Notes under the pieces: generated by a model
Seen by the model: only the letters and a program-made list of their open reading frames with translations
What the model was told of the DNA's origin: nothing
Databases searched by the model: none
Part shown: positions 2,182 to 41,914 of the stretch, piece after piece
Layout: each line of letters opens with the position of its first letter
How positions within the stretch are numbered: the first letter of the stretch is position 1
Position numbers and translations under genes: made by a program
IMG/VR virus record: IMGVR_UViG_3300046559_000483
Span: 1-42,545 of that record
Strand: one strand, 5' to 3'
Source: a virus
DNA length: 42,545 bases

Positions 2182-2706
2182 ATGGCCACGGCCACGCAGA
2201 AGCGCGTATGTAAGCACAGCACCAAGGCTGGCCATCCGTGTAGGGCAACCCCACTCAAGAACAGCGACTACTGCCTGGCGCATACCGACGAGGAAACGCG
2301 GGCTAGCCACGGCTTTGGCGGTAGCGAGAACGGGTCCAAGGGCGGCCGGCCACGTAAGCCGCGTGTCGTGGATGTGATCCTGGCGCAGATAGAGGAGCGC
2401 GCAGACGCGATCTTTGCCGGCCTGTGGGAGATGACCACGGCCACCAAGTGGGTCTACAGCGGCGGCGACAGCCCGGCCATGGAGGTGCCCGACTACACCA
2501 CACGGCTGGCGGCATACCGCGAACTGCTGGACCGCGGCTATGGCAGGCCCAAGCAGGCCGGCGAGCTGACGATCATCACAGAGAGCGAGATAGACCGAGA
2601 GATCCGCAGACTGGAGGCGCAGCTTGACCAGCAGAACGGTGGAGCTGGACCCGGCGATCCCGCCGCAGAAGCTAGAGCGCTACCAGCACCTACGCCGGCA
2701 GGTTGA
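2182..2706 (+). CDS. Terminase small subunit
   Basis: A 174-residue protein placed directly before the large terminase. The N-terminus holds a probable zinc motif (CKH...HPC...YCLAH, residues ~10-35), followed by a basic Gly-rich stretch (GGRPRKPR) and a helical region with YRELLDRGYGRPKQ, typical of phage small terminases that recognise packaging DNA. The C-terminus is acidic and then Ala/Pro-rich. The start has no ribosome-binding site but sits 7 nt after a TAGCCT hexamer, so it is probably leaderless. It overlaps the large subunit gene by 83 nt. Confidence 0.75.
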   Translation: MATATQKRVCKHSTKAGHPCRATPLKNSDYCLAHTDEETRASHGFGGSENGSKGGRPRKPRVVDVILAQIEERADAIFAGLWEMTTATKWVYSGGDSPAMEVPDYTTRLAAYRELLDRGYGRPKQAGELTIITESEIDREIRRLEAQLDQQNGGAGPGDPAAEARALPAPTPAG

Positions 2707-3961
2707 GGCCAACTGGCAGCCCGCGGGCAGGGCACGGCTAGAGCCGCATCAGATCCCGCCGGCCCAGCCCTGGCATCTTTGGCTGCTCGAGGGCGGCCGT
2801 GGGTGCGGCAAGACGGAGGCGTGCGCGCGGTACTTCGCCAGGTACATGCGGGCCAACGCCGGCCATAGGGGTCGCATCGTGGCGCCTACCTTCGGCGATG
2901 CCGTTGAAGCGTGCATCGAGGGGCCTAGCGGCCTGCTGGCCATGGATCCCGACATACGCTGGCTGCCCAGCTCGCCGGGTGGTGCCAAGGTCGTGTGGCC
3001 CAACGGCAGCGAGGCGTTGGTGTTCGGCACGCCGTTCCCCCGCGATATAGACCGCTTCAAGGCCGGCGGGAACCGGCACATCGACTGGTGGGAGGAGATG
3101 GCGGCCAACACGCAGCTGGCAAAGGCGTGGGACCAGGCGGCACTCGGCTTGCGCCTGGGAGAGCACCCGCACAGCATCGCGTCGACCACGCCGCGCGGCA
3201 CGGGCGACTACCGGGCGATCCGCAAGATGCCCGACGTGGTGCGCACGCACGCCACGCTGTTCGACAACCCGCACAACCCCAGCGAGTGGGTGGAGCGGAT
3301 GCGGGCGCGCTACGAAGGCACGCGGCTGGGCCGCCAGGAACTTGCCGGCGAACTGCTAGACGATGCCCTCGGTGCCCTGTGGAGGCGCGAGCTGTTCGAC
3401 GATCGGGCAGACACGCCGCCCACGCTGGTGCGTGTGGTGGTGGCCATAGACCCGGCGGCTACAAGCGGAGAGGACGCAGATGACACGGGCATCGTGATAG
3501 CCGGCCTGGGAGCAGACGGCCACGGCTACGTGCTGGCCGACCGCACGTGCCACCTACCGCCCGACCAGTGGGCTAGGCGCGTGCACGCCGCCTACGAGGA
3601 GTTCAGCGCCGATCGTGTGGTAGCCGAGGTCAACAACGGCGGCGAGATGGTGGGCGTGGTGCTGAAGACGACAGAGACCGGCATGGCCTACAAGTCGATA
3701 CACGCCAGCCGCGGCAAGGCCATCAGAGCCGAGCCTGTAGCCGCCCTCTATGAACAGGGCAAGGTGCACCACGTGGGCGCCTTCCCGCACTTGGAGGACC
3801 AGTGCTGCCAGTGGGTGCCGGGCGAGGGAGAGGACAGCCCAGACAGGCTAGACGCGCTCGTTTGGGCTATAACTGACCTAATGCTGGCAGGTGGCCCCGG
3901 CCAAGTGCTTGTGGCGCAAGGTAGGATTCCTGGTGTGAAAGCTCAGCGGGGTCGGTGGTGA
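2624..3961 (+). CDS. Terminase large subunit (packaging ATPase-nuclease)
   Basis: A 445-residue protein with both terminase domains. The ATPase shows Walker A GGRGCGKT (57-64) and a Walker-B-like HIDWWEE (152-158), then a STTPRG coupling-type motif near 187. The RNase-H-like nuclease shows acidic residues in AIDPA (D276), VVAEVNNGG (E335) and DRLDALVWA (D410). It translocates DNA into proheads and cuts the concatemer. TTG 2624 is chosen because GGAGG lies 7 nt upstream. GTG 2639 is the main alternative. Either start lies inside the small-subunit gene, so the two are probably translationally coupled. Confidence 0.9.
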   Translation: MTSRTVELDPAIPPQKLERYQHLRRQVEANWQPAGRARLEPHQIPPAQPWHLWLLEGGRGCGKTEACARYFARYMRANAGHRGRIVAPTFGDAVEACIEGPSGLLAMDPDIRWLPSSPGGAKVVWPNGSEALVFGTPFPRDIDRFKAGGNRHIDWWEEMAANTQLAKAWDQAALGLRLGEHPHSIASTTPRGTGDYRAIRKMPDVVRTHATLFDNPHNPSEWVERMRARYEGTRLGRQELAGELLDDALGALWRRELFDDRADTPPTLVRVVVAIDPAATSGEDADDTGIVIAGLGADGHGYVLADRTCHLPPDQWARRVHAAYEEFSADRVVAEVNNGGEMVGVVLKTTETGMAYKSIHASRGKAIRAEPVAALYEQGKVHHVGAFPHLEDQCCQWVPGEGEDSPDRLDALVWAITDLMLAGGPGQVLVAQGRIPGVKAQRGRW

Positions 3962-6413: not shown

Positions 6414-6658
6414 CCGACACCGAGCGGCGCATTCTGCAGTATGTGGCACGCACCAGCGAGAGCAAGCCCTACGCACCCGGCGGCTGGGTCGTCTACGCCG
6501 TGCCGGTGCGCACAGACGGCAGCCAGGCGTGGGAGTGGGACGCCTATAAGCCGCTGGTGGAGCGCGGCCTGCTCAATCGCGGCGAGGACTGGAAGAACAT
6601 CTACTTGCGACTGACCGACGCCGGCTGGCGCGCACTCAGCAAGACTAAGGTCGGCTGA
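6410..6658 (+). CDS. Small winged-helix-like protein
   Basis: An 82-residue protein from ATG 6410 (ATGA overlap). The N-terminal helix (TERRILQYVAR), a middle helix (AYKPLVERGLLNR) and the final LRLTDAGWRALSK give the same order as the protein at 1540-1791, suggesting a winged-helix fold. Function unknown. Its stop overlaps the portal ATG. Confidence 0.45.
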   Translation: MTDTERRILQYVARTSESKPYAPGGWVVYAVPVRTDGSQAWEWDAYKPLVERGLLNRGEDWKNIYLRLTDAGWRALSKTKVG

Positions 6659-9600
6659 TGGCCCCGTGGTTCGGCAAACGCCAGAAGCAGCAGGGCATAC
6701 GTGTCCTGACTGCGGCCGGCAAGCGTATAGACGTAGGCGATCGTCACGAGGCGATGGTCATGCGCGCGTTGCGCCAGGGCTGGCAGGCCGACGCCTGGAA
6801 CTACTGGGCCAGCATCGGTGAGATCCACTACGCCGTGAAGTTCTTGGCCAACTGCGCCGCGCGGATGCAGCTCTACACGGCCGCCTACCCTAACGAAGGG
6901 GAGACGGACAAACCGGCGCCGCTGGCCGAGGTGGCTGGCATACCGCCCGAGGTTGCGTCCATAGCCGAGCAGGCGATGCTCGAGCTAGGGCACGGCAAGC
7001 TGGCGCTGGGGCAGATCATGGCGGCGCTCAGCACCAACACGAGCGTGGCCGGCGAGTCGTGGCTGGTGGGCATACCCGACCCGGTCACAGGCGAGCCGCA
7101 GTGGAAGGTGCGCTCGGTCCACGAAATCGTCATCAAGGACGACCGCTGGACGCTGCGGGAGGTGCCGGCCGACGCACAGGGCATCATCCCGTGGATCACG
7201 CTGGACCCGCGCACTACGGTGCTCTCGCGCATCTGGACGCCCTCGCCGCAGTTCAGCAAGCTGGCCGACAGCCCGATGCGGGCGATGCTGGACGACTGTG
7301 AGAGCCTGCTGATCCTGCGCCGCATGATCCGCGCCGAGGGCCGCTCGCGTCTTGCCACCGCCGGCATCCTGGTCGTGCCCAACGAGCTGTCGATCAAGGC
7401 GCCAACAGACGACAACGCCGACCCACAGGCTGACCCGTTCATGGGGCCGCTGGCTGAAGCGATGATGGAGCCGATCGCGGATGAGGGCGTGGCGTCGGCC
7501 GTGGTGCCCATCGTGGTGCGTGGGCCTGTCGAGGCAGCCAAGGAGCTGCGGCACATAGACATGGCGCGTAGCTTCGATGCCGAGGCGGGCAAGCTGCGCG
7601 AAGAGCTAATCGGCATCATCGCCACGAGCTTCGACCTGCCCAAGGAGGTCATCACGGGCATCGTGGACCTCAACCATTGGAGTGCGTGGCAGGTAGACGA
7701 CAACACCTTCCGCCATCACGTAGAGCCGCACGTCATCGAGTGCTGCGACAGCCTCACGGCCGCATACCTGCGCCCCTACCTCGAAGCCGCTGGTGTAGAC
7801 GCCACGCTGGCCCGGCGCGTCTGTATTTGGTACGACGCCACCGAGCTGGTCACGCATCCCGATCAGACGAAGGATGCGCTGGACCTGCACGACCGCCTGG
7901 TGATCAGTGACGAGGCCCTGCTGCGCGTGGCCGGGTTCGAGGCCGCCGACAAGCCCGGCAAGCCCGAGTTGCAGGTGCGGCTGCTCGAGAAGATGCGGAC
8001 ATGGCCACCTAACCTCGTGATGGCCTTCCTCCACGCTTGGGATCCCACGCTGGTGGCGCCGTCCATGACCGGCCCGCCCGCGATCCCCGGCATAGGCCCC
8101 GGTGGCGTGGAGGCCCCCGAACCACCCCCCGGCACGCCTCCCGCGGCCGGCGCAGCCCCCTCTCCGCCGGCACAGCCGGGGGGTGGACTCCCTTCGCCGG
8201 CCACGGCACCGCCGGGGCACAACGGCACGCCGCCGATGCAACGGCAACTGCCGGCGCCGCCCACGACGGCCAGCGGCGGGTTGGAGGCCGTCGCTACTGT
8301 GCTGGCCGCAGACCCAGAGCGGGCAGAGCAACTGCTGGAGCTGCTGGCCCATGCGCCCATCGCGCACAAGGCTGACGCGGCTGCGCCCGGCGAAGGCTCC
8401 ACAGCGCCCGAAGGTGCCAGCGAAGAAGTGCCCACTGAACCCGTGACGCTGACGCCCGAAGAAACGGAACAGGCCGAAGCGGCGCTGCGGGAATACGAAA
8501 CCAAGACGGACGCCGAACGGGAAAAAGAACGAGAAGAAGCCGAAAAGGCAGGCGAACCGGAACCGGGTGACGCACCGCCCACGGCACCACCAGGCGGCAC
8601 GATCCAGGACCTCCACCCGCGCATACAGCGCGAATGGGCACAGCGGGCCACGCGCGGCGCCAAGCAGCGCCACCACGCCAAGCCCAAGGCCCACAAGGGC
8701 GAGAAACGAGGCAAGGGCGGGCGCTTCGAGCCGCTAACGGCCGCCGGCAAGCGCCGCGGCAAGGGCCTGCGCACGTCACAGCGCCTGGTCGCCATAGACC
8801 AGGACCTGCGCGCCCGGCTGCAGGTGGCGGCCAATGCGGCGATGCTGCGGCAGCTAGAACGCGCCGGCCAGCGCCTGCGCAAGAGCGTGGCGCGCGACGA
8901 GCGGGCGCGCGGGAAGATTGCGCACAAGTCGACCTATCTTGTGGCGGCGGCTCTTGGTCCAGCTGGGGTCGCCGCCACAGGGCTCACACCCACGGACCTG
9001 CTGGGCCGCGACTGGAACGGGCTTAAGGCCCAGTTCGAGGAGTGGGTTGCCGCAGCCCAGCAGCAGGCCGTGCGGCTGGCCCTCGGCCTGGTAGACCCGC
9101 CCAAGGAGGTCGTGAAGGCAGCCGAAGCCCGGCTCGAGGAGCAGCGCGCGCTCGCCTGGCGATCGCTGGCCGCCGAGCTATCGCAGCTGGCCGAACGCCT
9201 GCTCTACCACCCGCACCCCGACGACGAAGGGCCGGCCAACCCAAACACGCTGGTGCCGACGGGCGTGCTGCGCCGTGCGCTGGCCATTGCCGGCGGGGCC
9301 AAGCCGCGTGTCCTGACCGCTGCAGGCGAGGGCGAAGTGAATGAAGGCGCCGTGGCAACGATGCCCACGGAGGGCGTGGACGTGGTGCTGGCCGGCGACG
9401 AACCCAGCGAAGGCGGCAGCGTGTCGGTGGGCGTGGGCCAGATCGGCACGGGCGAAGCGGTGGGCGACCTGATCGAAGCCGGCGGCGGCGGGCAGGAGGG
9501 CTGGGAATGGGTGCATGGCCCGGCGCTCAACCCCTTCGAGCCGCACGTGGACCTGGATGGCACGACGTTCGTCTCTTTCGACGACGAAGCCCTAGCCAAC

Positions 9601-10119
9601 ACGGGCGACTTCCCAGACAACGAGTTCTACATGCCGGGCGACCACGATGGCTGCACGTGCGACTACATGCCGGTGCTGCTGGCGCCCGACGAAGTGCCAG
9701 CAGCCGAAGGGGGACCAAGTTGGGAGGACGCGGTGGCGATGGTGGCACAGGCCAACGAGGGCACGTCCTATGGTACGGCCAACGCCGAGGTCCATGCGGC
9801 ATCAACGACAACCGACCACCCGCAGTTCTTCTACCATCAGAGCAAGGCCAGCAACCGAGAGTCGATCGACGCCACAGGGCTTGAGGCCAATCGATCTCTC
9901 GGCGGCAAGACGACTCGCATATACCTTGCGGAAGAGCGGCCCGTGTTGGTGGCTCGCAGTGACAGCGCCCCGAAAGACCTCTACCGAATTGACACCGCTG
10001 GCCTGCCCCTGCGACCCGACCCAGAGCTGCCCGGCAAGTGGGCCATAGCTGAACAGGACATTGCTGCTGCCCGCCTCAATCTCATAGGCACAACACACCC
10101 CGACGGTCTGCCGGGGTAA
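6658..10119 (+). CDS. Portal-MuF-ADP-ribosyltransferase fusion protein
   Basis: A 1153-residue protein, far longer than a portal alone (about 450-550). Residues ~20-470 are portal-like (WNYWASIGEIHYAVKFLA near 48, IIATSFDLPKEVI near 320). Residues ~470-540 are Pro/Gly-rich, and ~570-650 form an acidic linker rich in GAA codons. Residues ~660-1010 are a MuF-type head morphogenesis region ending in WVHG, FEPHVDLDG, FVSFDDEAL and GDHDGCTCDYMP. Residues ~1055-1145 look like an ADP-ribosyltransferase or KptA-like domain (FFYHQS with H1060, TTRIYLAEE, LYRIDTAGLPLRPDP, WAIAEQDI). LTAAG motifs at 17-21, 693-697 and 886-890 lie at domain borders. DNA passage, head assembly and possibly delivery of the enzyme are the expected roles. 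Confidence 0.8.
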   Translation: MAPWFGKRQKQQGIRVLTAAGKRIDVGDRHEAMVMRALRQGWQADAWNYWASIGEIHYAVKFLANCAARMQLYTAAYPNEGETDKPAPLAEVAGIPPEVASIAEQAMLELGHGKLALGQIMAALSTNTSVAGESWLVGIPDPVTGEPQWKVRSVHEIVIKDDRWTLREVPADAQGIIPWITLDPRTTVLSRIWTPSPQFSKLADSPMRAMLDDCESLLILRRMIRAEGRSRLATAGILVVPNELSIKAPTDDNADPQADPFMGPLAEAMMEPIADEGVASAVVPIVVRGPVEAAKELRHIDMARSFDAEAGKLREELIGIIATSFDLPKEVITGIVDLNHWSAWQVDDNTFRHHVEPHVIECCDSLTAAYLRPYLEAAGVDATLARRVCIWYDATELVTHPDQTKDALDLHDRLVISDEALLRVAGFEAADKPGKPELQVRLLEKMRTWPPNLVMAFLHAWDPTLVAPSMTGPPAIPGIGPGGVEAPEPPPGTPPAAGAAPSPPAQPGGGLPSPATAPPGHNGTPPMQRQLPAPPTTASGGLEAVATVLAADPERAEQLLELLAHAPIAHKADAAAPGEGSTAPEGASEEVPTEPVTLTPEETEQAEAALREYETKTDAEREKEREEAEKAGEPEPGDAPPTAPPGGTIQDLHPRIQREWAQRATRGAKQRHHAKPKAHKGEKRGKGGRFEPLTAAGKRRGKGLRTSQRLVAIDQDLRARLQVAANAAMLRQLERAGQRLRKSVARDERARGKIAHKSTYLVAAALGPAGVAATGLTPTDLLGRDWNGLKAQFEEWVAAAQQQAVRLALGLVDPPKEVVKAAEARLEEQRALAWRSLAAELSQLAERLLYHPHPDDEGPANPNTLVPTGVLRRALAIAGGAKPRVLTAAGEGEVNEGAVATMPTEGVDVVLAGDEPSEGGSVSVGVGQIGTGEAVGDLIEAGGGGQEGWEWVHGPALNPFEPHVDLDGTTFVSFDDEALANTGDFPDNEFYMPGDHDGCTCDYMPVLLAPDEVPAAEGGPSWEDAVAMVAQANEGTSYGTANAEVHAASTTTDHPQFFYHQSKASNRESIDATGLEANRSLGGKTTRIYLAEERPVLVARSDSAPKDLYRIDTAGLPLRPDPELPGKWAIAEQDIAAARLNLIGTTHPDGLPG

Positions 10120-10140: not shown

Positions 10141-12279
10141 ATGAGCCAGAAGACACGCACCGAGCTGATCGCCTCCTACGGGTACGGCGACGAGGCGGCC
10201 AGCCTGGCCGAGGCGCCCGCGCCGCCCAACCCCGAGCCCGCCGAGGCCGGCGACGAGGGCCAGATCCTTGCCGCCATCGAAGCCGCCATCGCCGCACAGG
10301 AAGCAGACGAGGATGTGGCCACGGACCCAAACGACGCCAAGACCTTGGACCTGTTGAAGCAGGCACTGGAGGCACACCTAGCGGACGTGGCAGCAGAGGC
10401 CCCACAAGCGGCGCCTCCCGCCAAGGCAGCACCGCCCGTGGGCACCCCTAAAGGGCCGGCCAAGCCAGCGGCGCACGCAGCGGCTGGCGTGTGCACGATG
10501 TGCGGCGGCAGCGGCAAGACGAGCGAGGGCAAGGTCTGCGCGATGTGCAACGGCAGCGGCAAGCTAGCCCTGACGCCCGGCCCGGAGGCGCCGGGGAAAG
10601 CCAAGATGCCAACCCAAGCACAGGCCGACAAGAAAGGCCCGGAAAACGGCGACGTCTGCCAGAACCAGGACTGCGGGCACACGGCCGCGATGCACGCCAA
10701 CGAACAGGGCGGCGACAACGTAGGCGCGTGCACGGCGCCGGACTGCAAGTGCCCGAACTTCCAGACGGAAGAAGAAGCGTCGTCCGGTGAACCCGGCACG
10801 CCCAACCTGCAGGCAGCCATGCCCGGCACACCGCCTGGCGCGGCGCCCACCGAGGGCGAGCCCAAGACGCAGCAGAACGCACCGCCGCCAGTCGAAGGAG
10901 GAGAAAACATGGGCGCATCGTTCGTCATTCCCGTGGGCATCATCGAGGGCCAGGAGACGGGCGACGGCAGGATGATCGCGCCGGGCGCCCTCACGTGGCG
11001 CGAGCCGCCGATGCCGCTCATGCTGCTCACGACCAGCCCGCACGACCCCAGCGGCATGTCGCCCAACGACCCGGCTGTGATCGCCGGCCGCATCGACAGC
11101 CTCGAGCGCGTCGACGGCGAGGGCGGCACGCAGGTGATCTGCGCCAAGGGCTTCTGCCTGCCCAACGAGGACGGCCAGCAGCTGGCGCAGCTCTGCGAGT
11201 CGATGGGCCGGCTGGGCGTTAGCGGCGACGTGGCCGTGGACGCCACCGAGATCACGGGTGTGGAGATGGACCCGGATATGCCGGGCCTGCCGCTGAACAT
11301 GAACGAGCAGATCACCGAGGGCACCATCATGGGCTTCACGGCCTGCCCGTTCCCGGCGTTCGAGGGCGCCTACATGGTGCTGGGCGACGGCACCGAGGAG
11401 GCGCCCGCGGCCATAGCGCAGCGCAGCCCCGAGAAGTCGGCGGAAGCCAAGCAGACGCCGCCCCTGGCCGCCTCAATCCACTTCATGGCTTACGAGGAGT
11501 GCGTGCCCTGCCAGGAGGGCTTCGACATCATCACGGCGGCCGGTGGCCCGGTGCGCCCGCCCGCGGCGTGGTTCGCAGACCCGGACTTCGTGGTGGGAGA
11601 CGACCGGCTGGTGGAGATCCTGGACAAGCGCGGCAACGGCGACGCCTACGCCTGCCCGCTCACCGTCACCGAGGATGGCCGGGTGTACGGGCACATCGCC
11701 CCGTGGGGCGTCTGCCACACCGGCAAGCTCGGCACGTGCGTGACGGCGCCGCACACGACCACCGACTACGCCTACTTCCGGCTGGGCGAGATCCAGACGG
11801 CCGAGGGCGAGCACATCAAGGTGGGCAAGCTGACGGCCGACGTAGGCCACGCCACCACACAGCCGGGCGTCATGGGCTTCACGGCTCCCGAGGCGATCGC
11901 CCACTACGACAACAGCGCCCTGCAGGTGGCCTACGTAAACATCGGCGAGGACGAGTTCGGCATCTGGGTGGCCGGCGCCGTGGCGCCCACGGCCACCGAA
12001 GAGCAGGTGCAGAAGCTCCGGGCATCGAGCATCAGCGGCGACTGGCGCGGCATCGGCGGCAAGCCTGAGCTGGTGGCGGCCCTGTGCGTGAACCAGCCGG
12101 GCTTCCCGCTGGCCGTCGTGGCGCACGGGCAGCAGGCGCTGGTGGCTGCCGGCGCGTCGGTGATGGCGCACCTGAAGGACCCGCGGCCCAGCGCCACGGG
12201 CCTGCCTCAGTGGGCCGAGGGTCCGCTGCTCGAGCTGGCCGCGCAGCGTGCGCGCGAGCGCGTGCAAGCACTCGGCTAA
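10141..12279 (+). CDS. Capsid maturation protease with zinc-finger extension
   Basis: A 712-residue protein preceded by AGGAGG. Residues 1-256 are an Ala/Pro-rich extension with two DnaJ-type repeats (CTMCGGSG at 118-125, CAMCNGSG at 133-140) and a second Cys/His cluster (C173, C178, H180, H185, C197, C202, C204). Residues ~258-435 resemble prohead proteases of actinophages (SPHDPSG, AGRIDSLERV, GVSGDVAVDATE). After IITAAGG (463-469), residues ~470-685 match the conserved second half of these proteins (PPAAWFADP, GRVYGHIAPWGVCH, TDYAYFRLGE, AIAHYDNSAL, GIWVAGAVAP, SGDWRGIGG). It should cleave scaffold and capsid precursor during head maturation. A strong internal start at 10909 could yield a 456-residue form lacking the zinc region. 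Confidence 0.75.
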   Translation: MSQKTRTELIASYGYGDEAASLAEAPAPPNPEPAEAGDEGQILAAIEAAIAAQEADEDVATDPNDAKTLDLLKQALEAHLADVAAEAPQAAPPAKAAPPVGTPKGPAKPAAHAAAGVCTMCGGSGKTSEGKVCAMCNGSGKLALTPGPEAPGKAKMPTQAQADKKGPENGDVCQNQDCGHTAAMHANEQGGDNVGACTAPDCKCPNFQTEEEASSGEPGTPNLQAAMPGTPPGAAPTEGEPKTQQNAPPPVEGGENMGASFVIPVGIIEGQETGDGRMIAPGALTWREPPMPLMLLTTSPHDPSGMSPNDPAVIAGRIDSLERVDGEGGTQVICAKGFCLPNEDGQQLAQLCESMGRLGVSGDVAVDATEITGVEMDPDMPGLPLNMNEQITEGTIMGFTACPFPAFEGAYMVLGDGTEEAPAAIAQRSPEKSAEAKQTPPLAASIHFMAYEECVPCQEGFDIITAAGGPVRPPAAWFADPDFVVGDDRLVEILDKRGNGDAYACPLTVTEDGRVYGHIAPWGVCHTGKLGTCVTAPHTTTDYAYFRLGEIQTAEGEHIKVGKLTADVGHATTQPGVMGFTAPEAIAHYDNSALQVAYVNIGEDEFGIWVAGAVAPTATEEQVQKLRASSISGDWRGIGGKPELVAALCVNQPGFPLAVVAHGQQALVAAGASVMAHLKDPRPSATGLPQWAEGPLLELAAQRARERVQALG
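10896..10911 (+). promoter_or_regulatory. Internal ribosome-binding site and in-frame ATG in the protease gene
   Basis: AAGGAGGAG lies a few nucleotides before ATG 10909, which is in frame (codon 257) and immediately precedes the protease domain. This is one of the strongest ribosome-binding sites in the window. It would make a short protease without the zinc extension. Confidence 0.55.
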
Positions 12280-13654: not shown

Positions 13655-15406
13655 ATGGATGCGATTCGCGAGCTGCTAGGACGGCTCAACGCGCTTACCG
13701 CGGAGGAGCTTGCGGACCTCCGTCAGAAAATCACAGAGGAGTTCAACGGCCTCGAGCCGGCCGACGGCGAGCAGGTAACGCCCGAGATCGCGCAGGCCAT
13801 GACCGAGCTACGCGAAGCCGCCGACCAGGTCCTGGCCGAGAGCGGCGCACGCGACGAGGCGCAGGCGGCGGCCGAACAGGCAGCCGAAGCGGCACGCGAG
13901 GGCGTGCGCGCGCTGGCGCCGCCCGAGGAGCCCGAGGCCGAAGCCGAGCCAGAAGAGGCAGAGCCCGAGCCCGAGGCAGAGCCGACGGGCGAGACCGAGG
14001 CAGAGGCCCCACAGCCCGAGCCCGTGGCCGCCAGCGGCCAGCGCCTCGCCAGGATGGCGCAGCGCCAGGCCAAGGCCGCGCCCAGCCCCGAGGTATCCGT
14101 GCCCGACACCAAGCGTGGCACGCTGGTAGCAGCTGGCTCGCTGTCAAGCTCGCTCCCACAGGGCAGCGAGATCCACACGCGCGGCGAGCTGGCCGAGGCG
14201 TTCTGCGACACGCTGCAGCGCCTCTCCCGGCAGGGGCCGGCTAAAGGCAACGTCCTAGTTGCCTCCTCGACGTTCGAGTACCCCGAGGAGCGGCGCCTGA
14301 CCGAGGACCCGTTCCGCAACACCGAGATGGTGCTGCGCGAGTGCGGGCCGGCGGCCAAAGGCATCGACCCGGCGACGGGCGCAGAGGCCCTCGTGGCGAC
14401 CGGCGGTATCTGCCTCCCGGTGAACGTCGACTACGCCGTGCCCACGTGGGCGACGGCGGAGCGGCCGGTGCGCGATGCGCTGCCGGCGTTCCAGGCGACC
14501 CGCGGCGGCATCCGCTTCGTCATCCCGCCGGACATCAGCACGTGGGAAGCCGCGACAGGGATCTGGACCGAGGCGACGGACGCCTCGCCGGGCGTCGAAG
14601 TGAAGCCCGTTGTGGCCCTGACGTGCGGGACCGAGGAACTCGTCTACGTCGAGGCCATCTCGACCCGGCTGGGCTTCGGCAACATGCAGAGCCGGTTCGC
14701 TCCCGAGCAGGTGGCGGCCAACACGGACGTGGCCATTGCGGCTGCGGCACGGGTGGCCGAGAACAACCTGCTCAACCTGATCGCAGAAACGTGCGTGAAA
14801 GGCGTCACGGCCGGCACGGCCTCGCAACTGGGCACGGTGCGGGAACTCCTATCCTCGGTGCTGCCGTTGCTCTGCAGCCAGCAGAAGCAGCTGCACAGGC
14901 TCTCCGACGACCAGGCGTTCTCGTTCATCCTGCCCCGCTGGCTCCGTAACGAGATCAAAGCGGACCTGGCCCGCGAGGCGGCGCACGTCTACGCACCGGG
15001 CCGCGATGCGCTGTGCGTATCGGACGCCGACGTGGACGCGCTGTTCGCGCCCTACAACGTGCGGCCGATCTGGCACTTCGACGGGCAGACGGCGGCGGTG
15101 GAAGGCGGCGTGAGCCAGATCTTCGTCGCCCCGGCCAAAGCGGCCATCAAGCCGTTCCCGACCAAAGTGGTGGGCTACTTCTTCGTCGAGGGGGCCATCC
15201 AGTTCCTCGACGCGGGACGGCTCGACCTCGGCGTGGTGCGCGACAGCACCCTGGACGCCACGAACGACTACGAGACGTTCGTGGAGACCTTCGAGGGCAT
15301 CGCGAAACGCAGCTACGCCAACGGCGCGCTCCAGACGGTGATGACCTTCGAGTCGACCGGCACGGCTGCGGCGCCCCTGGACATGAAAGGCAAACCGCCC
15401 GCCTGA
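13655..15406 (+). CDS. Major capsid protein with N-terminal scaffold (delta) domain
   Basis: A 583-residue HK97-type capsid precursor. Residues 1-~155 are acidic, Ala/Glu-rich and coiled-coil-like (LNALTAEELADLRQKI, then a long E/A/P stretch), as expected for a fused scaffold. TLVAAGS (156-162) marks the likely border to the shell domain. The shell region includes GGICLPVNVDYAVPTWATAE, RGGIRFVIPPDIS, a helix-rich AAAARVAENNLLNLIAE segment and a C-terminal FVEGAIQFLDAGRLDLGVVRDS, the conserved end of actinophage capsid proteins. The upstream maturation protease is expected to remove the scaffold. Ribosome-binding site GAAGGAG is present. Confidence 0.85.
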   Translation: MDAIRELLGRLNALTAEELADLRQKITEEFNGLEPADGEQVTPEIAQAMTELREAADQVLAESGARDEAQAAAEQAAEAAREGVRALAPPEEPEAEAEPEEAEPEPEAEPTGETEAEAPQPEPVAASGQRLARMAQRQAKAAPSPEVSVPDTKRGTLVAAGSLSSSLPQGSEIHTRGELAEAFCDTLQRLSRQGPAKGNVLVASSTFEYPEERRLTEDPFRNTEMVLRECGPAAKGIDPATGAEALVATGGICLPVNVDYAVPTWATAERPVRDALPAFQATRGGIRFVIPPDISTWEAATGIWTEATDASPGVEVKPVVALTCGTEELVYVEAISTRLGFGNMQSRFAPEQVAANTDVAIAAAARVAENNLLNLIAETCVKGVTAGTASQLGTVRELLSSVLPLLCSQQKQLHRLSDDQAFSFILPRWLRNEIKADLAREAAHVYAPGRDALCVSDADVDALFAPYNVRPIWHFDGQTAAVEGGVSQIFVAPAKAAIKPFPTKVVGYFFVEGAIQFLDAGRLDLGVVRDSTLDATNDYETFVETFEGIAKRSYANGALQTVMTFESTGTAAAPLDMKGKPPA

Positions 15407-16824: not shown

Positions 16825-18075
16825 ATGACCGTAGTCACACCAGGCGCGAGCGTCTTCGTCAAGGCATTCCGCGTCAGCCAGTTGACCGAAGAAGGCACCA
16901 TCGCCCCCGGCGCCGTGACCGTCACGACCAAAGACGGCATGAAACTGAACATCGCGCCCTCGATGCACACGGGCGCCGACATCGCCATCGAGAACGCTGC
17001 CGGTGACCTGGCCACGCTGGCCAAGCACGGCGACATGATCAAGTTCTACACCGTGCAGCTGGAGCTGGCGAAGCCCGACCCGCAGATTGAGCAGATGTGC
17101 TGCGGTGGCACGCTGCTGGGATCGAGCGCGGCGGCGCTGGGCGAACCGGGCGCCCCCGCCGTGGTTTCGCAGAAAACGGAAGGCACGATCCTCGAAGGTT
17201 TCGTCGGCTACCGCACGGCGCAATACAACGTCTACGGCGAGAGCAAAGCCACCGTTGAAGTGCTGGGCGCGAAAACGAACGCCTCCAACACCAACACGGC
17301 CATCGTGACGCCCACGGGCGCAGCGGCTACGGCCATCGGCTACCGCATCTACGGCCGCAGTCCCGCCGCCGGCCAGTTCCTCGGCAACGTGCCGAACATC
17401 GCCAAACCGAAACTGAAAAAAGCGGTGGCGATCAAAGGGCTGAAAAAAGGCACGCCGCTGGTGATCGAAGTGGAAACGGTGACGGTAGGGATCCCCGGCG
17501 GCACCTACCTCGTGACCGAGGCGGCAGCAGAAGGCAAGGCCGTCGTCAAGGTGGTGGGCTACGTGCCCATCGGCGCATCCTCGGCCACCGTCGAAATCGT
17601 GAACGAAACGGAAAACGCCGCTGAATTCAAAATCGGCGAATTCAAAGCGGTGTTCTGGGACACGGGCAGCATCGTGCCCAACGGCAACGTCTCGGAAACG
17701 GACACCACGGGCGGCGCGGGCGAAAACCTGGGCGTGAGCGCCCCGTTGCTTGGCCCCGTAGGCCAGCCCAACGGCGTGAGCATCGAGGCGTGGAGCTACA
17801 ACTACGTGGAAGGCGCCGTGAGCCAGACGCTGCCCTACTGGTGGTGGGTGCTGCCGAGGGTGCGGCACATGCACATCGCCGCACGCGACCTCAACAACGC
17901 CAACACGGCCACGCTCATGGAAGGCATCGGCGTGGGCAACACGGGCTGGGGCACGGGGCCAAGCGGCGAATGGCCGGCCAGCACCTTCTCTGCCGCGAGG
18001 GCCTGGCAGCGGCTACGGTGCGGCGCCGAGGTCGTGCCGGAACCGTCCTACTCGCCGCAGTACGCGACGGTCTAG
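16825..18075 (+). CDS. Major tail-like protein with inserted beta domain
   Basis: A 416-residue protein. The N-terminal part (VTVTTKDGMKLNIAP, IKFYTVQLELAKPDPQIEQMCCGGTLL) and the C-terminal part (NGVSIEAWSYNYVEG, LPYWWWVLPRVRHMHIA, GVGNTGWGTGPSGEWP) match the two halves of actinophage major tail proteins. Residues ~113-285 are inserted: a beta-rich, AAA/GAA-coded segment (NVYGESKATVEV, GYRIYGRSPAAGQFLGN) similar in style to the insert of the preceding gene. The product would build the tail tube with the insert exposed. Lying before the head-tail connector genes is unusual for a tube gene, so a capsid-associated role remains possible. Confidence 0.6.
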   Translation: MTVVTPGASVFVKAFRVSQLTEEGTIAPGAVTVTTKDGMKLNIAPSMHTGADIAIENAAGDLATLAKHGDMIKFYTVQLELAKPDPQIEQMCCGGTLLGSSAAALGEPGAPAVVSQKTEGTILEGFVGYRTAQYNVYGESKATVEVLGAKTNASNTNTAIVTPTGAAATAIGYRIYGRSPAAGQFLGNVPNIAKPKLKKAVAIKGLKKGTPLVIEVETVTVGIPGGTYLVTEAAAEGKAVVKVVGYVPIGASSATVEIVNETENAAEFKIGEFKAVFWDTGSIVPNGNVSETDTTGGAGENLGVSAPLLGPVGQPNGVSIEAWSYNYVEGAVSQTLPYWWWVLPRVRHMHIAARDLNNANTATLMEGIGVGNTGWGTGPSGEWPASTFSAARAWQRLRCGAEVVPEPSYSPQYATV

Positions 18076-18086
18076 ACGTAGCCGTG

Positions 18087-18578
18087 CTAGCTAGCTTGCT
18101 TGCGGGCGTCGCGCCTCCGGGCGTAGCGCCCGCGCTCAAGTTCAGCACGGCGAGCCTTGCGTCGCTGCAATTCCTCGGGCGTTGCTGGGGTCGCGTTTTC
18201 GCGGCGTGTCTGCTCGCGCGCGAGGGCACGCGCACGCTGTGGACCCGAGGACAGGTTGCGCGCCAGGTTGGCGGCGCGTTCCTTTGGGGTTTGCGGAGCC
18301 GGTCGTGGGCCGTAGATGCGCTCGCTGTTTTCAAGCGTCTTGATCTTGTGGCAGTTCGCGCACAGCAGTTGATACTCGCTTGGGTTGGCTGCAATCAGGT
18401 CGTAATAGCGTCGGGTGCCGTGTTTGATGCCAGCACGGCGCTCGGCGTGGCCGCCGCCGTTGACATGGTCAATCTCAAGCACTCGCGGGTCACCATTTCC
18501 GCAGCGCACGCAACACCCGCCCATTTCGCGGAACGCGTCAGCTCTACGGTTTATGTTCATCTGGCGTCGGTCGCTCAC
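18087..18578 (-). CDS. HNH endonuclease
   Basis: A 163-residue protein on the minus strand from GTG 18578-18576. The zinc-supported HNH core is complete: CVRC (C23, C26), LEIDHVNGGG (D37, H38), and LLCANCHKIKT (C73, C76, H77). A long basic helical tail (residues ~95-163, many RRA and ARE repeats) may bind DNA. No ribosome-binding site is clear, but TAGGGT lies exactly 7 nt before the GTG, suggesting a leaderless transcript. Standing alone and antisense between structural genes, it looks like a free-standing homing-type endonuclease. A role in packaging is less likely because the terminase genes are far away. Confidence 0.8.
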   Translation of the reverse strand: MSDRRQMNINRRADAFREMGGCCVRCGNGDPRVLEIDHVNGGGHAERRAGIKHGTRRYYDLIAANPSEYQLLCANCHKIKTLENSERIYGPRPAPQTPKERAANLARNLSSGPQRARALAREQTRRENATPATPEELQRRKARRAELERGRYARRRDARKQAS

Positions 18579-18585
18579 GTGTCCC

Positions 18586-18591
18586 ACCCTA
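18586..18591 (-). promoter_or_regulatory. -10 hexamer TAGGGT, leaderless start of the HNH gene
   Basis: Read on the minus strand, TAGGGT (18591-18586) is followed by 7 nt and then GTG at 18578. This is the same spacing as TAGCCT before the terminase gene. The intervening GGTGGGA could act as a poor ribosome-binding site, so leaderless initiation is likely but not certain. Confidence 0.4.
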
Positions 18592-18618
18592 ACACCACGG
18601 CGGGGAGGGAGTAACCCC

Positions 18619-19500
18619 GTGGCACGTACAGGGCCATGCACACCTTGGACATCGGGCCAGGACGTGGAAGAACTGCAGTGGGTCAAGGAAGCCGCCGACG
18701 CGCTCACGAAAAAGCAGGCGCTAACCGACGGCCAGCTGGAGGCCATCTGCGCCTCCTCTGCCATGGAGGCCAGCGAGGCGCTCTACGAGCAGAGCGGGCG
18801 CCTGTTCACGGGCGAGTGCGGGCCGGCCACGATCCGGCCCGTAAGCCGCCCCACGGACATAGACATGCGCTCCCTGGGCGCCACGCTATCACCCGTCGGC
18901 TGGTACTCGAGCAGCGGCTTTAGCTCGGCCTACGGCAGCTTCGTCCCCGGCGTGCTAACGCACTACGGCCGCAGCGACCCGCCGGAAATCCAGATCCCGT
19001 GGCCGGTGCGCGCGATCGTGCAGGTGCAGATCGACGGCATCGTGATCCCAGACGAAGAGTACGAGTTGCGCGACGCCAAGACGCTGGTGCGGATACGGCC
19101 CACGGCCAGCTACGTGCCCACCGCCCGCTACGGCTGGCCCACGAGCCAGCGCATGGACCTGCCCGACACGCAGCCGGGCACGTTCAGCATCACGTTCCTG
19201 TTCGGGCAGGACCCGCCGGCCTTGGGCACGGCCGCGGCGCTCACGCTGGCGCAGTACATAGCCCTGCCAAAGCTGGGCGATCGCAAGCACATGCCCCAGC
19301 GCGTCACCTCAATGCAGAGACAGGGCATCAGCGCCCAGGTGGTGGACGTGATCGACCTGCTGCGCAAAGGCGCCGGCACGGGCATCTACGAGGTCGACCT
19401 GTTCCTGAAGAGCGTCAACCCCGGCATGGCCGACAGGCAGGGCATGGTGTGGTCGCCGGACATGGGCAGGCCGCGGCGCCAGGCGCAGGCGGCGCCCTAA
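18619..19500 (+). CDS. Head-tail connector (adaptor) protein
   Basis: A 293-residue protein from GTG 18619, after GGAGGGAGTAA. The opening CTPWTSGQDVEEL and the following ASEALYEQSGRLFTGECGPATIRP are typical of actinophage head-to-tail adaptors. The middle is beta-rich (IVQVQIDGIVIPDEEYELRD) and the C-terminal half has helices suited to ring formation (AALTLAQYIALPKLGD, QVVDVIDLLRKG). It should dock on the portal and complete the head-tail joint. Confidence 0.7.
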   Translation: MARTGPCTPWTSGQDVEELQWVKEAADALTKKQALTDGQLEAICASSAMEASEALYEQSGRLFTGECGPATIRPVSRPTDIDMRSLGATLSPVGWYSSSGFSSAYGSFVPGVLTHYGRSDPPEIQIPWPVRAIVQVQIDGIVIPDEEYELRDAKTLVRIRPTASYVPTARYGWPTSQRMDLPDTQPGTFSITFLFGQDPPALGTAAALTLAQYIALPKLGDRKHMPQRVTSMQRQGISAQVVDVIDLLRKGAGTGIYEVDLFLKSVNPGMADRQGMVWSPDMGRPRRQAQAAP

Positions 19501-19553
19501 CCGTGAGCGGCCACAGAACCGCCACGACAGCCCCGTTGGGGCGGTGAGCCGGC

Positions 19554-20030
19554 GTGACGGTAGGGGAGGTGGCCACCAAGGCGCTGGCGGCGTTTGCGGA
19601 CGCGCTCGAGGAGCAGGGCGTGACGTTGCCGGATCGCCGCTATATGGCGCCAGGCTCGATCATCCCGTGGGACGGCGAACAGCTCGTCGTGACGCTGCAG
19701 AGCGTGGGTCAGGGCAAACCCGGCGCCCCACAGGCGCAACGTTACCTGCCGGGCTCTGAGAACTTCTACGCGCAGTTCGCCGTGGCGATCGTGCGCGTCG
19801 TGCCGGCGCTAAGCGACGGCCCCGAAGGCATCCCAGACGAAGGTGAACTCAACGACGCCGGGGTGGTGGCCATGACCGACGCGCTGGCGCTGGTGCGCGC
19901 GGCCGTGACGGTACACGCGGCCTCGGTCGCCACGGGCCTGGGCATGGACTTCGTCGTAGGGCCGTGCACGACGGTCGGGCCAGAGGGCGGGCTGGCGGGG
20001 CACCGGCTGCTGTTCGAGGTGTCGCTATAG
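19554..20030 (+). CDS. Head-tail connector / tail terminator-like protein
   Basis: A 158-residue protein from GTG 19554. It has LPDRRYMAPGSIIPWDGEQLVVTLQ followed by strands (NFYAQFAVAIVRVVP) and a long helix (MTDALALVRAAVTVHAASVAT), a layout shared by proteins encoded between the adaptor and gp10-like genes in actinophages. These are variously called stopper or tail terminator. The 53-nt gap before it contains a small hairpin (GCCCCGTTGGGGC, 19530-19542). The exact structural place is inferred from gene order. Confidence 0.6.
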   Translation: MTVGEVATKALAAFADALEEQGVTLPDRRYMAPGSIIPWDGEQLVVTLQSVGQGKPGAPQAQRYLPGSENFYAQFAVAIVRVVPALSDGPEGIPDEGELNDAGVVAMTDALALVRAAVTVHAASVATGLGMDFVVGPCTTVGPEGGLAGHRLLFEVSL

Positions 20031-39951: not shown

Positions 39952-40820
39952 GCCGCTCCTACGGGCGCACGCCCAAGACACCCGACCCCCGCGACTTCCT
40001 GCTCGGGGACCACCTAGCGGGCATCGACCCCGTGCAGGCCGTTGCGGGCGCAACCTTCGGCCACGGCAACACCTACGCCAACTGGCGCATGAACGGCAAC
40101 GGGCCGGTGCAGCCGGGCGAAGCGCTACCGGCCAAGTGGAAGGCCGCCAAGGAAGGCGCAGGCGACTGCGTGTATGCCGCCTGGGTCAACGAGGTGAAGG
40201 AGGCACTGACGGACGCCGGCATGGACCCAGCTGCGGCCGAGGCCAAGGTAGGCAACGCCGAGACGGCGATCCGCGCCTACATGAGCACCGGCTACAACCC
40301 CTCGACGGGCGCCCACGACGACGGAGCTGAAGTGCGCGACCGCCTGAAGCGTGCGCAGAAGACCGGGCTGACCCTGGCCGACAAAACCGTGCACAAGATC
40401 GGCATGTATGTGGCGGTCGACTACACAAACCTCGACCACCTGCTGTTCGCACTCAAGTATTTCGAGGGGCTGCCCATCGGCTGCGCGGTCCTGAACGCCA
40501 ACGAGGAAGCCTTCGGGGAGGCGGAAGGCAAGCTCGACCCGGAAGGCCACCCGCTGGCGGCCGTGTGGGACGACGAACCGAACGGCGAGGTCGTGGCCCT
40601 GCATTGCATCCCGCTCGTGGGCCGGCCGGACAGCACGCACATCGCCGCGCTCACGTGGGGGCGGCGCGTGTTCCTGACGCCGGCCTACATGGCCAAGCGT
40701 GTCGAAGAGGTCTGGGCGTACCTGAGCGCAGACCGCATCAGCGCCGTGACGGGCAAGAGCTACGAGGGTGCTAGCGAAGCGGTGCTGGCCGAATACATCC
40801 AGAAGGTAGTGGCGATGTGA
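39948..40820 (+). CDS. Papain-like cysteine peptidase-type protein
   Basis: A 290-residue protein from GTG 39948 (GTGA overlap). GAGDCVYAAWVNEVKEA (Cys74) opening a long helix and a later VVALHCIPLVGR (His219) followed by THIAALTWGRRVFLTPAYM match the C1/C39-like fold of a conserved actinophage protein in lysis or tail regions. Its substrate is unknown; a peptidoglycan or host-surface protein target is an inference. Confidence 0.5.
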   Translation: MSRSYGRTPKTPDPRDFLLGDHLAGIDPVQAVAGATFGHGNTYANWRMNGNGPVQPGEALPAKWKAAKEGAGDCVYAAWVNEVKEALTDAGMDPAAAEAKVGNAETAIRAYMSTGYNPSTGAHDDGAEVRDRLKRAQKTGLTLADKTVHKIGMYVAVDYTNLDHLLFALKYFEGLPIGCAVLNANEEAFGEAEGKLDPEGHPLAAVWDDEPNGEVVALHCIPLVGRPDSTHIAALTWGRRVFLTPAYMAKRVEEVWAYLSADRISAVTGKSYEGASEAVLAEYIQKVVAM

Positions 40821-41914
40821 AGGCCTACGGATGCGGCTTCGACGGGCACTACGAGCTAGGGCAGGGCTGGCCGCGCAAAGCCATGGAAGGCCAGGCGAAG
40901 CTCAAATGGACGCTAATCCCGAACCTCGGCTCCGATAACGCCTGGTGCCACACGCTGTCGTTCTCATCGCTGTTCCTGAAGCAAGGAGCCGTGACGCTGA
41001 CCGACGCCCGCCCTAACACCGTCTATGCGCTCGGGACAACGCTGGCCGGACATCTGCTGCTGGGCTGGAAAGACCAGTCGGCGGTATGGTTCCCGTCCAG
41101 AACGCTGCTCCCGCCATGCGCGCAGATCGCCGGCACCTGCAACCATCCCGTGCATCTGACACTCGACGGGCGGATCGTCACCGGCGGCCCGAACGCCGAA
41201 GGGACGTTAGCCAACGGCGAAAGAGGCACCCGTGAAGAACCGAAAGCAGTTTCCGTGCCGGTGTTCCCCGACCTGTCCGCCTTCGCCGGCAAACGGGTAA
41301 TCGCAGTCGACGGGGGCTACGGCCACTGCGGCTGCCTTTTCGATGACGGGACCACCGCCGGCTGGGGGGAGAACGCCTCATCCCAGGTCGGGGACGGCAC
41401 GCTGACCGACCGGCTGGTGGTCACGCAGACGATCGCCACGGAAGTCGTCGCCTTTGCGTGCCTGTGGAACGCAAAGCTCTACCTGAAAGCTGACGGGCGG
41501 GTTTCGATGGTCGGCAACAACAATCAGAACCAGTCTGCCGGCGCCGCCCCTGCAATCGCCCATTCGATCAAGCAGCCGTTACTGATCCCTGGCCTTGAAG
41601 GGATCATCGCTGTCGCCGGGGCAGGCGGACGTGCTCTAGCCGTCGACGTGAACGGCGACCTGTTCATGTGGGGTGCCGACGAACCCGGTCCGCCGCGGAA
41701 GGTGCTCGATCAGGTGTCTGCGATCAGCGCCGGCTGCTACCAGTGGGCCACAACATGCCTCGCCGTCCGCGACGGGGAAGTCTGGGCACAAGGCCGCGCG
41801 AACTATGGGCAGATTGGAGATGGCACGCGCGACGATAAAGAGGCGTTCGTGCCTACAGGCTTCGGGGCGTCTGTCATCAGCGCCGGGGAAACGCATAGCC
41901 TGGCGCTGGCCTAG
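40817..41914 (+). CDS. RCC1-type beta-propeller protein
   Basis: A 365-residue protein from GTG 40817 (GTGA overlap). Repeats of the RCC1/BLIP-II kind are visible: NTVYALGTT, LDGRIVTGGPNAEGTLANGE, VIAVDGGYGHCGCLFDDGTTAGWGENASSQVGDGT (in parts), KADGRVSMVGNNNQNQSA, VNGDLFMWGADEPG and DGEVWAQGRANYGQIGDGT, ending ISAGETHSLALA. About seven blades fit the length. RCC1 propellers bind proteins or ligands; the partner here is unknown. Coupling to the peptidase gene suggests a joint role. Confidence 0.7.
   Translation: MKAYGCGFDGHYELGQGWPRKAMEGQAKLKWTLIPNLGSDNAWCHTLSFSSLFLKQGAVTLTDARPNTVYALGTTLAGHLLLGWKDQSAVWFPSRTLLPPCAQIAGTCNHPVHLTLDGRIVTGGPNAEGTLANGERGTREEPKAVSVPVFPDLSAFAGKRVIAVDGGYGHCGCLFDDGTTAGWGENASSQVGDGTLTDRLVVTQTIATEVVAFACLWNAKLYLKADGRVSMVGNNNQNQSAGAAPAIAHSIKQPLLIPGLEGIIAVAGAGGRALAVDVNGDLFMWGADEPGPPRKVLDQVSAISAGCYQWATTCLAVRDGEVWAQGRANYGQIGDGTRDDKEAFVPTGFGASVISAGETHSLALA

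Follow-up and report, generated by a model that had tools for sequence, protein, structure and literature searches.

What occupies the C-terminal end of a phage portal protein that continues beyond its MuF part, and what could the additional domain do there? The window analyzed here, i.e., the whole stretch of 42,545 nucleotides (nt), is the single IMG/VR virus record IMGVR_UViG_3300046559_000483 (positions 1 to 42,545); related loci compared with it are labeled with L numbers (L004, L072, etc.). One open reading frame (ORF) of the window encodes portal, MuF and a further domain on a single polypeptide, as stated in the initial annotation, which was made from the DNA letters alone and likened the last domain to ADP-ribosyltransferases (ARTs) of the KptA type.

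6658..10119, plus strand: portal-MuF-ART, a single ORF of 1153 amino acids (aa), open and in frame, intact in a second contig
9811..10116, plus strand: ART domain similar to the KptA NAD lobe, aa 1052-1153 (profiles, AlphaFold, Foldseek, hhalign)

The last ~100 residues almost certainly represent an ART-superfamily domain of the type of the KptA lobe that binds nicotinamide adenine dinucleotide (NAD+), given that the relatives, the AlphaFold model and the profile-profile comparison agree. The strings quoted in the annotation are all present (FFYHQS at aa 1057, RIYLAEE at aa 1087, LYRIDTAGLPLRPDP at aa 1108 and WAIAEQDI at aa 1128); the proposed interval 9700-10119 ends correctly but starts about 110 nt too early because the domain begins near nt 9811 (aa 1052). 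An artefact of contig assembly or read-through of a separate neighboring gene is ruled out, given that the same 1153-aa ORF is intact in IMGVR_UViG_3300046837_000247, with 4 differences across 15.5 kb. The G+C content at third codon positions drops somewhat, from 0.84-0.89 in the portal and in MuF to 0.71 in the C-terminal domain, and the coding pattern is kept.

Single-sequence searches with the C-terminal domain in Pfam, PHROGs and the PDB sequences yielded nothing useful, a match to GhpA being low-complexity noise, and a search for related loci, whether started from this domain or from the full-length protein, brought up the same phage plus a single relative. The sole find of tblastn against phage records is a weak match to gp245 of Mycobacterium phage Tonenili (38% over 66 aa); a hand-edited consensus query gave no further convincing relative. 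The family was fished from IMG/VR and GTDB genomes with a DNA pattern for YHx[ST]xxxNRx[ST]IxxxGL, a motif common to the window and gp245. The relatives obtained in this way also keep the later motifs G[VI]Y, D[VIL]W.V, L..D and IPPxxL, and in the GTDB genomes the pattern also retrieved a bona fide KptA. In bacterial chromosomes, family members are present in 2 of 397 actinobacterial genomes, one of which is the query genome.

A family profile built without the window matches aa 1057-1147 with an E-value of 7.5e-13 (746 window ORFs). As a guard against circularity, significance was re-tested on the columns outside the fishing pattern, and the comparison with KptA was repeated without the KptA retrieved by the pattern. 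The profile of the columns behind the pattern still identifies aa 1057-1147 as the best match among the window ORFs (E 3e-4), with none of 1000 shuffles near this value. The AlphaFold model (AF2, 19 sequences) has a mean predicted local distance score (pLDDT) of 80.5, with the core above 90, and a predicted template modeling score (pTM) of 0.72. A Foldseek search of the PDB started with this model identifies Tpt1/KptA in all of the first 17 matches (best E 1.9e-3, probability 0.99-1.00, TM-score about 0.5), followed by TreX, PARP and DarT; among the viral models, the matches include Tonenili gp245 and the putative RNA 2'-phosphotransferase of PaBG. The TNT fold, another candidate, does not appear in the 50 PDB matches listed by Foldseek. 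Against all PDB sequences, the family profile matches only KptA (E 3.5e-5) and PARP. The hhalign comparison of the family with KptA NAD+ lobes gives a probability of 96% (E 3e-9), or 95% (E 3e-8) without the pattern-found KptA, and the alignment is colinear through the IPPxxL end. Thus, structure prediction and profile comparison, with Tpt1/KptA first in both, bear out the proposed ART fold.

Other ART-like proteins were encountered along with this family. A 788-aa phage protein (L016:2190-4553) apparently contains three ART-like domains, one of which exceeds the Pfam cut-offs for both PARP and KptA. A conserved stand-alone ART-like protein of ~110 aa (YHVTSVLNRASISRYGLDW...) is encoded in L039, L043, L045, L047, L048, L050, L053, L058 and L059, and is found in Rhodococcus, Nocardia and Williamsia genome contigs.

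The question of the chemistry leads to the residues of the predicted active site.

9835..9837, plus strand: H1060, first ART motif (equivalent to His101 of CthTpt1), with S1062 and I1070 at the Thr103/Ile111 spacing
9922..9924, plus strand: Y1089, at the second position of the ART motifs, where most family members have Y or F
9976..9978, plus strand: D1107, acidic, invariant in the 19-row family alignment and outside the fishing pattern

In CthTpt1, His101 and Thr103 hold the ribose of NAD and Ile111 stacks on the adenine (PMC6333775). The initial annotation placed H1060 in the NAD-binding position, and the spacing of S1062 and I1070 agrees with that assignment. The second position, Tyr1089, is as in the H-Y ARTs whereas KptA has histidine there. 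No conserved E, D or Q is found near IPPxxL, at the third catalytic position, in the 19 sequences; judging from the sequence, this is compatible with the H-H-h clade, which has a hydrophobic rather than an acidic third residue (PMC9503650). The RNA lobe of Tpt1, with Arg18, His19 and Arg68, is absent, the upstream sequence being linker and MuF, and neither Arg121 of the Tpt1 tetrad nor the arginine cage for the NAD phosphate is conserved across the family (the window does have R1079 and R1100 near the cage region, but they are not shared within the family). The domain therefore is not classifiable as KptA: of the annotated resemblance, the order of the motifs and the NAD+ lobe hold, and the RNA lobe, which contributes three of the four residues essential in Tpt1, is missing. 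The Alt/VIP2 type does not fit either, there being no match to PF03496 or any other Pfam family and no R, STS or E-x-E motif in the window, although these features are present in L134 and L168. Given the missing RNA lobe and the lack of an acidic third catalytic residue, the domain is neither KptA itself nor Alt/VIP2-like; judging from the conserved motifs, it may still use NAD+ in a KptA-like manner.

These residues bear on two other explanations. One is a head-packaged ART with a protein target, as in T4 Alt, which is packaged in the head and ejected according to the relevant part of PMC9503650. The histidine and tyrosine positions fit the H-Y clade ARTs, and the portion of PMC5512222 on polyvalent proteins proposes H-Y-D ARTs as protein modifiers; the family-invariant D1107 favors this possibility as well. 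Nevertheless, the best relative by both fold and profile is KptA rather than Alt, VIP2 or PARP, the third motif lacks an acidic residue, and D1107 is on a different core strand, so that we consider a protein target unlikely. Of the parallel with T4 Alt drawn in the annotation, the comparison of delivery can be kept but the kinship and the chemistry cannot, as no acidic third catalytic residue is present. The other explanation is a decayed or nucleotide-binding ART fold with a structural or a DNA- or ADP-ribose-binding role at the portal vertex. Loss of the third catalytic position and the Tpt1 tetrad would fit such a role, and the MuF protein of phage Mu ends in a PBECR domain described as inactive (PMC5512222). 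The intact H-x-[ST]-x7-I signature of NAD contacts and the intact family-invariant residues in the window point in the opposite direction, and so does the behavior of the C-terminal slot (see below), which makes a non-enzymatic domain rather improbable.

The carrier of the domain consists of several parts.

6688..8220, plus strand: portal domain, aa 11-521 (phrog_776, E 1.3e-102; tblastn to 848 phage records)
8749..9291, plus strand: helical part of MuF, aa 698-878 (helices of the model; alignment with L072 and L004)
9478..9687, plus strand: MuF C-terminal part, aa 941-1010, with PGDHDGCTCDY at aa 993-1003 (PF04233, E 0.1; common to at least 80 loci)
9688..9810, plus strand: linker between MuF and cargo, aa 1011-1051, partly disordered in the model and absent from cargo-free relatives

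The 848 phage records matched by the portal are mostly from phages of actinobacterial hosts. A proline-rich linker connects the portal domain to the helical part of MuF, which a disordered linker separates from the MuF C-terminal part (MuF-C); in L004, the two halves are encoded as separate overlapping ORFs. Overall, MuF spans about aa 700-1003, with a weak PF04233 match at about aa 946-1003. The assignment is backed by 80 relatives with the MuF-C end motif, among the matches listed, and by matches of the model to minor capsid proteins.

At least 80 loci match PGDHxGCxCD[FY], the MuF-C end searched as a DNA pattern. At 67 of these, the portal is encoded in the same ORF, which makes portal-MuF fusion a common arrangement in this lineage. 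Among the matches listed, most loci end within 80 residues past the motif, 19, including the phage of the window, are extended C-terminally by 150 aa or more, and none of the other 79 sequences contains an ART of the KptA-like type. The protein of L143, 46% identical over aa 10-1011, stops after MuF, as do those of L072 and L140; L072 and L143 are homologous to the window protein through MuF-C. In L134, the portal is 53% identical and the homology extends to aa 1016, beyond which comes an ADPrib_exo_Tox domain (PF03496, E 4e-14) with R-S-E motifs. The same slot contains another exoenzyme ART of the ADPrib_exo_Tox family in L168 (E 6e-14), an HNH domain in L105 (E 1.7e-4, below the curated Pfam cut-off), and HExxH sequences of the metallopeptidase type in L166 and L169, which are not significant in Pfam and, judging from this motif, are probable metallopeptidases. 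Because the enzyme found at this position differs between related phages, the C-terminal end of the portal-MuF carrier is very probably an exchangeable cargo slot, and the portal-MuF-ART fusion is one instance of it. The presence of KptA-like and exoenzyme ARTs in related proteins implies that at least two ART clades share the slot.

The slot bears on the alternatives as well. Given that its cargos are exchangeable, often enzymes and, among the matches listed, absent from many relatives, a structural need for the domain is unlikely. That L134, the closest cargo-bearing relative among these matches, has an R-S-E ART of the protein-modifying type speaks for a protein target. Yet another possibility is that the ART acts while attached, on the portal, the terminase or the packaged DNA in the infected cell, with a role in assembly or in protecting the packaging machine. 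Protection of the packaging apparatus is raised as an alternative in a part of PMC9503650, and the fusion places the ART exactly there; but the close relatives L072, L143 and L140 presumably still package DNA without the domain, and we find this scenario highly improbable.

Two further kinds of extensions were seen in the same position. In L171, L170, L152, L141 and L097/L165, a recurrent portal-MuF C-terminal extension of ~300 aa ends in ...RR[IM][ST]WTE[YF]YYA[RK]TG...AAKHA..N. The extensions in L133, L113 and L122 have motifs YRGV...GxGIYGNGTYT[ST]T resembling another divergent R-S-E ART; the two tested, L133 and L122, have no Pfam match.

The genomic context is that of a typical head gene cluster, in the usual order of terminase, portal-MuF-X, maturation protease-like protein and major capsid protein, followed by tail genes.

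2624..3961, plus strand: terminase large subunit (phrog_979, E 3.4e-37)
10141..12279, plus strand: head maturation protease-like protein of 712 aa, the next gene (phrog_18402, E 3.6e-45, and others)
13655..15406, plus strand: major capsid protein (phrog_777, E 8e-61), with LVAAG at aa 157

This context is relevant to the possibility that the protein is a MuF-type polymorphic toxin used in competition, with the recipient intoxicated and lysogens shielded by an immunity protein. MuF proteins with C-terminal toxins, 14% of them putative ARTs, are known from temperate phages (PMC5576092), the window protein likewise has a MuF domain, homologous to the large MuF-C group, followed by a C-terminal effector domain, and the polymorphic slot favors this interpretation. 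In the same survey, however, 89% of MuF toxins are followed by an ORF of less than 150 aa, whereas here the 712-aa protease-like gene begins 21 nt downstream and no small immunity ORF lies between the two, in agreement with the annotation; furthermore, no lysogeny gene was seen among the subset of genes scanned. A competition toxin thus appears improbable. Elsewhere in the late region of the phage, positions 40817-41914 encode an RCC1-like repeat protein (PF25390, E 3e-45), which is unusual for a phage.

If the domain is cargo, it could be released by proteolysis, and three short motifs are candidates for the respective sites.

6706..6720, plus strand: LTAAG, aa 17-21, ahead of the portal core, candidate site of the maturation protease (motif comparison of portals)
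8734..8748, plus strand: LTAAG, aa 693-697, candidate site between the portal linker and MuF (shuffles; linker enrichment)
9313..9327, plus strand: LTAAG, aa 886-890, candidate site bordering the disordered linker within MuF (shuffles; model)

Three occurrences of LTAAG in a protein of 1153 aa were not reached in any of 20000 shuffles. The first is located ~25 residues ahead of the portal core, a region in which 10 of the 11 portals compared have [LIVM][TV]A[AS]; the LTAAG copies at aa 693 and 886 adjoin disordered stretches of the model. In 60 distinct portal-MuF proteins, [LIVM]TA[AS] occurs 14 times in the N-terminal region against 1.0 in shuffles, 18 times against 2.3 in the portal-MuF linkers and 20 times against 5.8 in MuF; in the portal body, it is not enriched (9 vs 5.5). 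Similar motifs are present in the protease-like and capsid proteins, both here and in related phages. Another sequence of the capsid proteins, LVASGG near aa 250-320, was discarded as a cut site because it is a conserved capsid motif (LVASGGxC.P). Given the enrichment at domain boundaries, we put the chances at about even that [LIVM]TA[AS] marks cleavage sites of the maturation protease that could free the cargo. The 12 copies at the DNA exit envisaged in the annotation presume that no processing occurs; with LTAAG at aa 17, 693 and 886, the cargo may be cut off.

Taken together, the best explanation, to which we assign a probability of roughly 0.6, is that a KptA-lobe ART is carried as cargo in the portal-MuF slot, would be cut off and ejected, and would act on RNA or nucleotides. 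Being part of the portal, the cargo would be built into every prohead; its presence in the virion is expected because of this fusion. The adjacent maturation protease probably cuts the polyprotein at the [LIVM]TA[AS] sites (aa 17, 693 and 886), and the predicted product, a MuF-C-ART fragment of ~265 aa located within the DNA channel or close to it, could leave with the genome. By analogy with T4 Alt and with published proposals for MuF proteins, ejection of the cargo along with the DNA seems slightly favored; delivery into the host is a hypothesis. In the new host, the ART would draw on host NAD+ at the very onset of infection, most likely for a KptA-like reaction with a phosphate group of RNA or of a nucleotide rather than to kill the cell; possible roles include repairing or blocking RNA damaged by the host and removing a defense signal. 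RNA ends or nucleotides are the leading, if tentative, guess for the target, based on the resemblance to KptA and on relatives fused to RNA- or ADP-ribose-related enzymes. In L021:8207-10477, one polypeptide comprises an ART of the same family and an entire CCA-adding/poly(A) polymerase with its HD domain, and in L027:3-2111, a 703-aa polyvalent protein combines a same-family ART with a 2H phosphoesterase and Arr (rifampin ADP-ribosyltransferase). At the same loci, the gene 286 nt downstream of the CCA-adding fusion also starts with such an ART domain, and a further ART-like stretch between the domains of the L027 protein was read by eye from the sequence.

Several observations weigh against this explanation. 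The window sequence alone gives a marginal match to KptA (38%), the strength of the comparison deriving from the family; the Pfam match to MuF is weak; and the RNA-linked fusions in L021 and L027 are distant family members. Internal [LIVM][TV]A[AS] motifs number 1.21 each in cargo-bearing and cargo-free proteins, which rules out that the cargo brought the LTAAG sites with it; given these equal counts and the N-terminal motif in 23 of 52 portals of a wider set, the sites are not cargo-specific. Finally, given that the family conserves neither E, D or Q at the third position nor the arginine cage of KptA, the domain may have weak activity or a different specialization, or it may be a pseudoenzyme.

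Fusions of effectors to MuF or portal are already published (PMC9503650 and PMC5512222, in the parts dealing with such fusions), and so are portal-MuF and MuF-VIP2 fusions (PMC7302621). The MuF polymorphic toxins and MuF-effector fusions (PMC5576092 and the MuF part of PMC5512222) resemble the window protein in that an enzyme, with ARTs among the cargos, is appended to a head-associated MuF in exchangeable fashion; the window protein is set apart by the portal fused to its MuF part, by the lack of a small immunity ORF downstream and by the KptA-like type of its ART. The fusions of ART, 2H, Nudix and PBECR domains to MuF or portal in PMC9503650 and PMC5512222 follow the same principle, with ejection along with the DNA proposed; the sections concerned do not name a domain of the KptA-NAD-lobe type on a portal-MuF fusion. 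In Microbacterium phages, portal-MuF fusions occur in clusters EA and EB and MuF-VIP2 ART fusions in EH and EJ (PMC7302621), i.e., in different phages, whereas the window has three parts in one chain and another type of ART. Tpt1/KptA RNA 2'-phosphotransferase (PF01885; PMC6333775) shares with the window domain the fold of the NAD+ lobe, the colinear motifs, H-x-[ST]-x7-I and an IPPxxL-like end, but the window domain has no RNA lobe, no Arg-His-Arg-Arg tetrad, and tyrosine for the second histidine. The closest stand-alone relative in isolated phages, Tonenili gp245, is encoded two genes after the major capsid gene; in contrast to the window domain, it is a separate protein of 125 aa, not fused to a portal, with an N-terminal tag common to gp239 and gp240. 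As far as our literature search reached, three findings are new: the KptA-lobe ART on a portal-MuF protein, the swapping of different cargos at a single position in related portal proteins, and the motif at the domain boundaries.

The tag shared by Tonenili gp245, gp240 and gp239 (L094:14768-15145, 17085-18683 and 18676-19977) is R[IV][VT]TAREQ[AF]EML[LQ]PW, and pieces of it match about 188 mycobacteriophage records. By analogy with the capsid targeting sequence of T4, we hypothesize that the tag may be a kind of address label. Shared N-termini are seen also in L010 and L024, in arrays of small genes whose products, some with ART-like domains, start with M[AGT]RNN[AV]DF on otherwise different proteins. 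In L018:1936-2331 and L036:2143-2559, stand-alone ART-like proteins start with MS[HE][ER]AL[SN]P[QR]QF and the product of the adjacent gene with MS[RQ][ER]ALxxQF, possibly a third shared tag.

A broader interpretation, offered with considerable doubt, is that the portal ring of this lineage is a carrier with exchangeable cargo (KptA-like or exoenzyme ART, HNH nuclease, probable metallopeptidases), processed by the maturation protease at [LIVM]TA[AS], from which up to 12 copies of an early effector per virion would enter the host first, the cargo of the window being an NAD-dependent enzyme acting on the ends of RNA or nucleotides. If true, the effector would sit exactly where the DNA leaves the capsid, with its copy number set by the portal ring. 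The MuF-C end motif together with the cargo slot would then provide a sequence handle for the systematic discovery of ejected phage effectors, and [LIVM]TA[AS] would be a testable cleavage motif for the maturation protease of actinophage-like phages.
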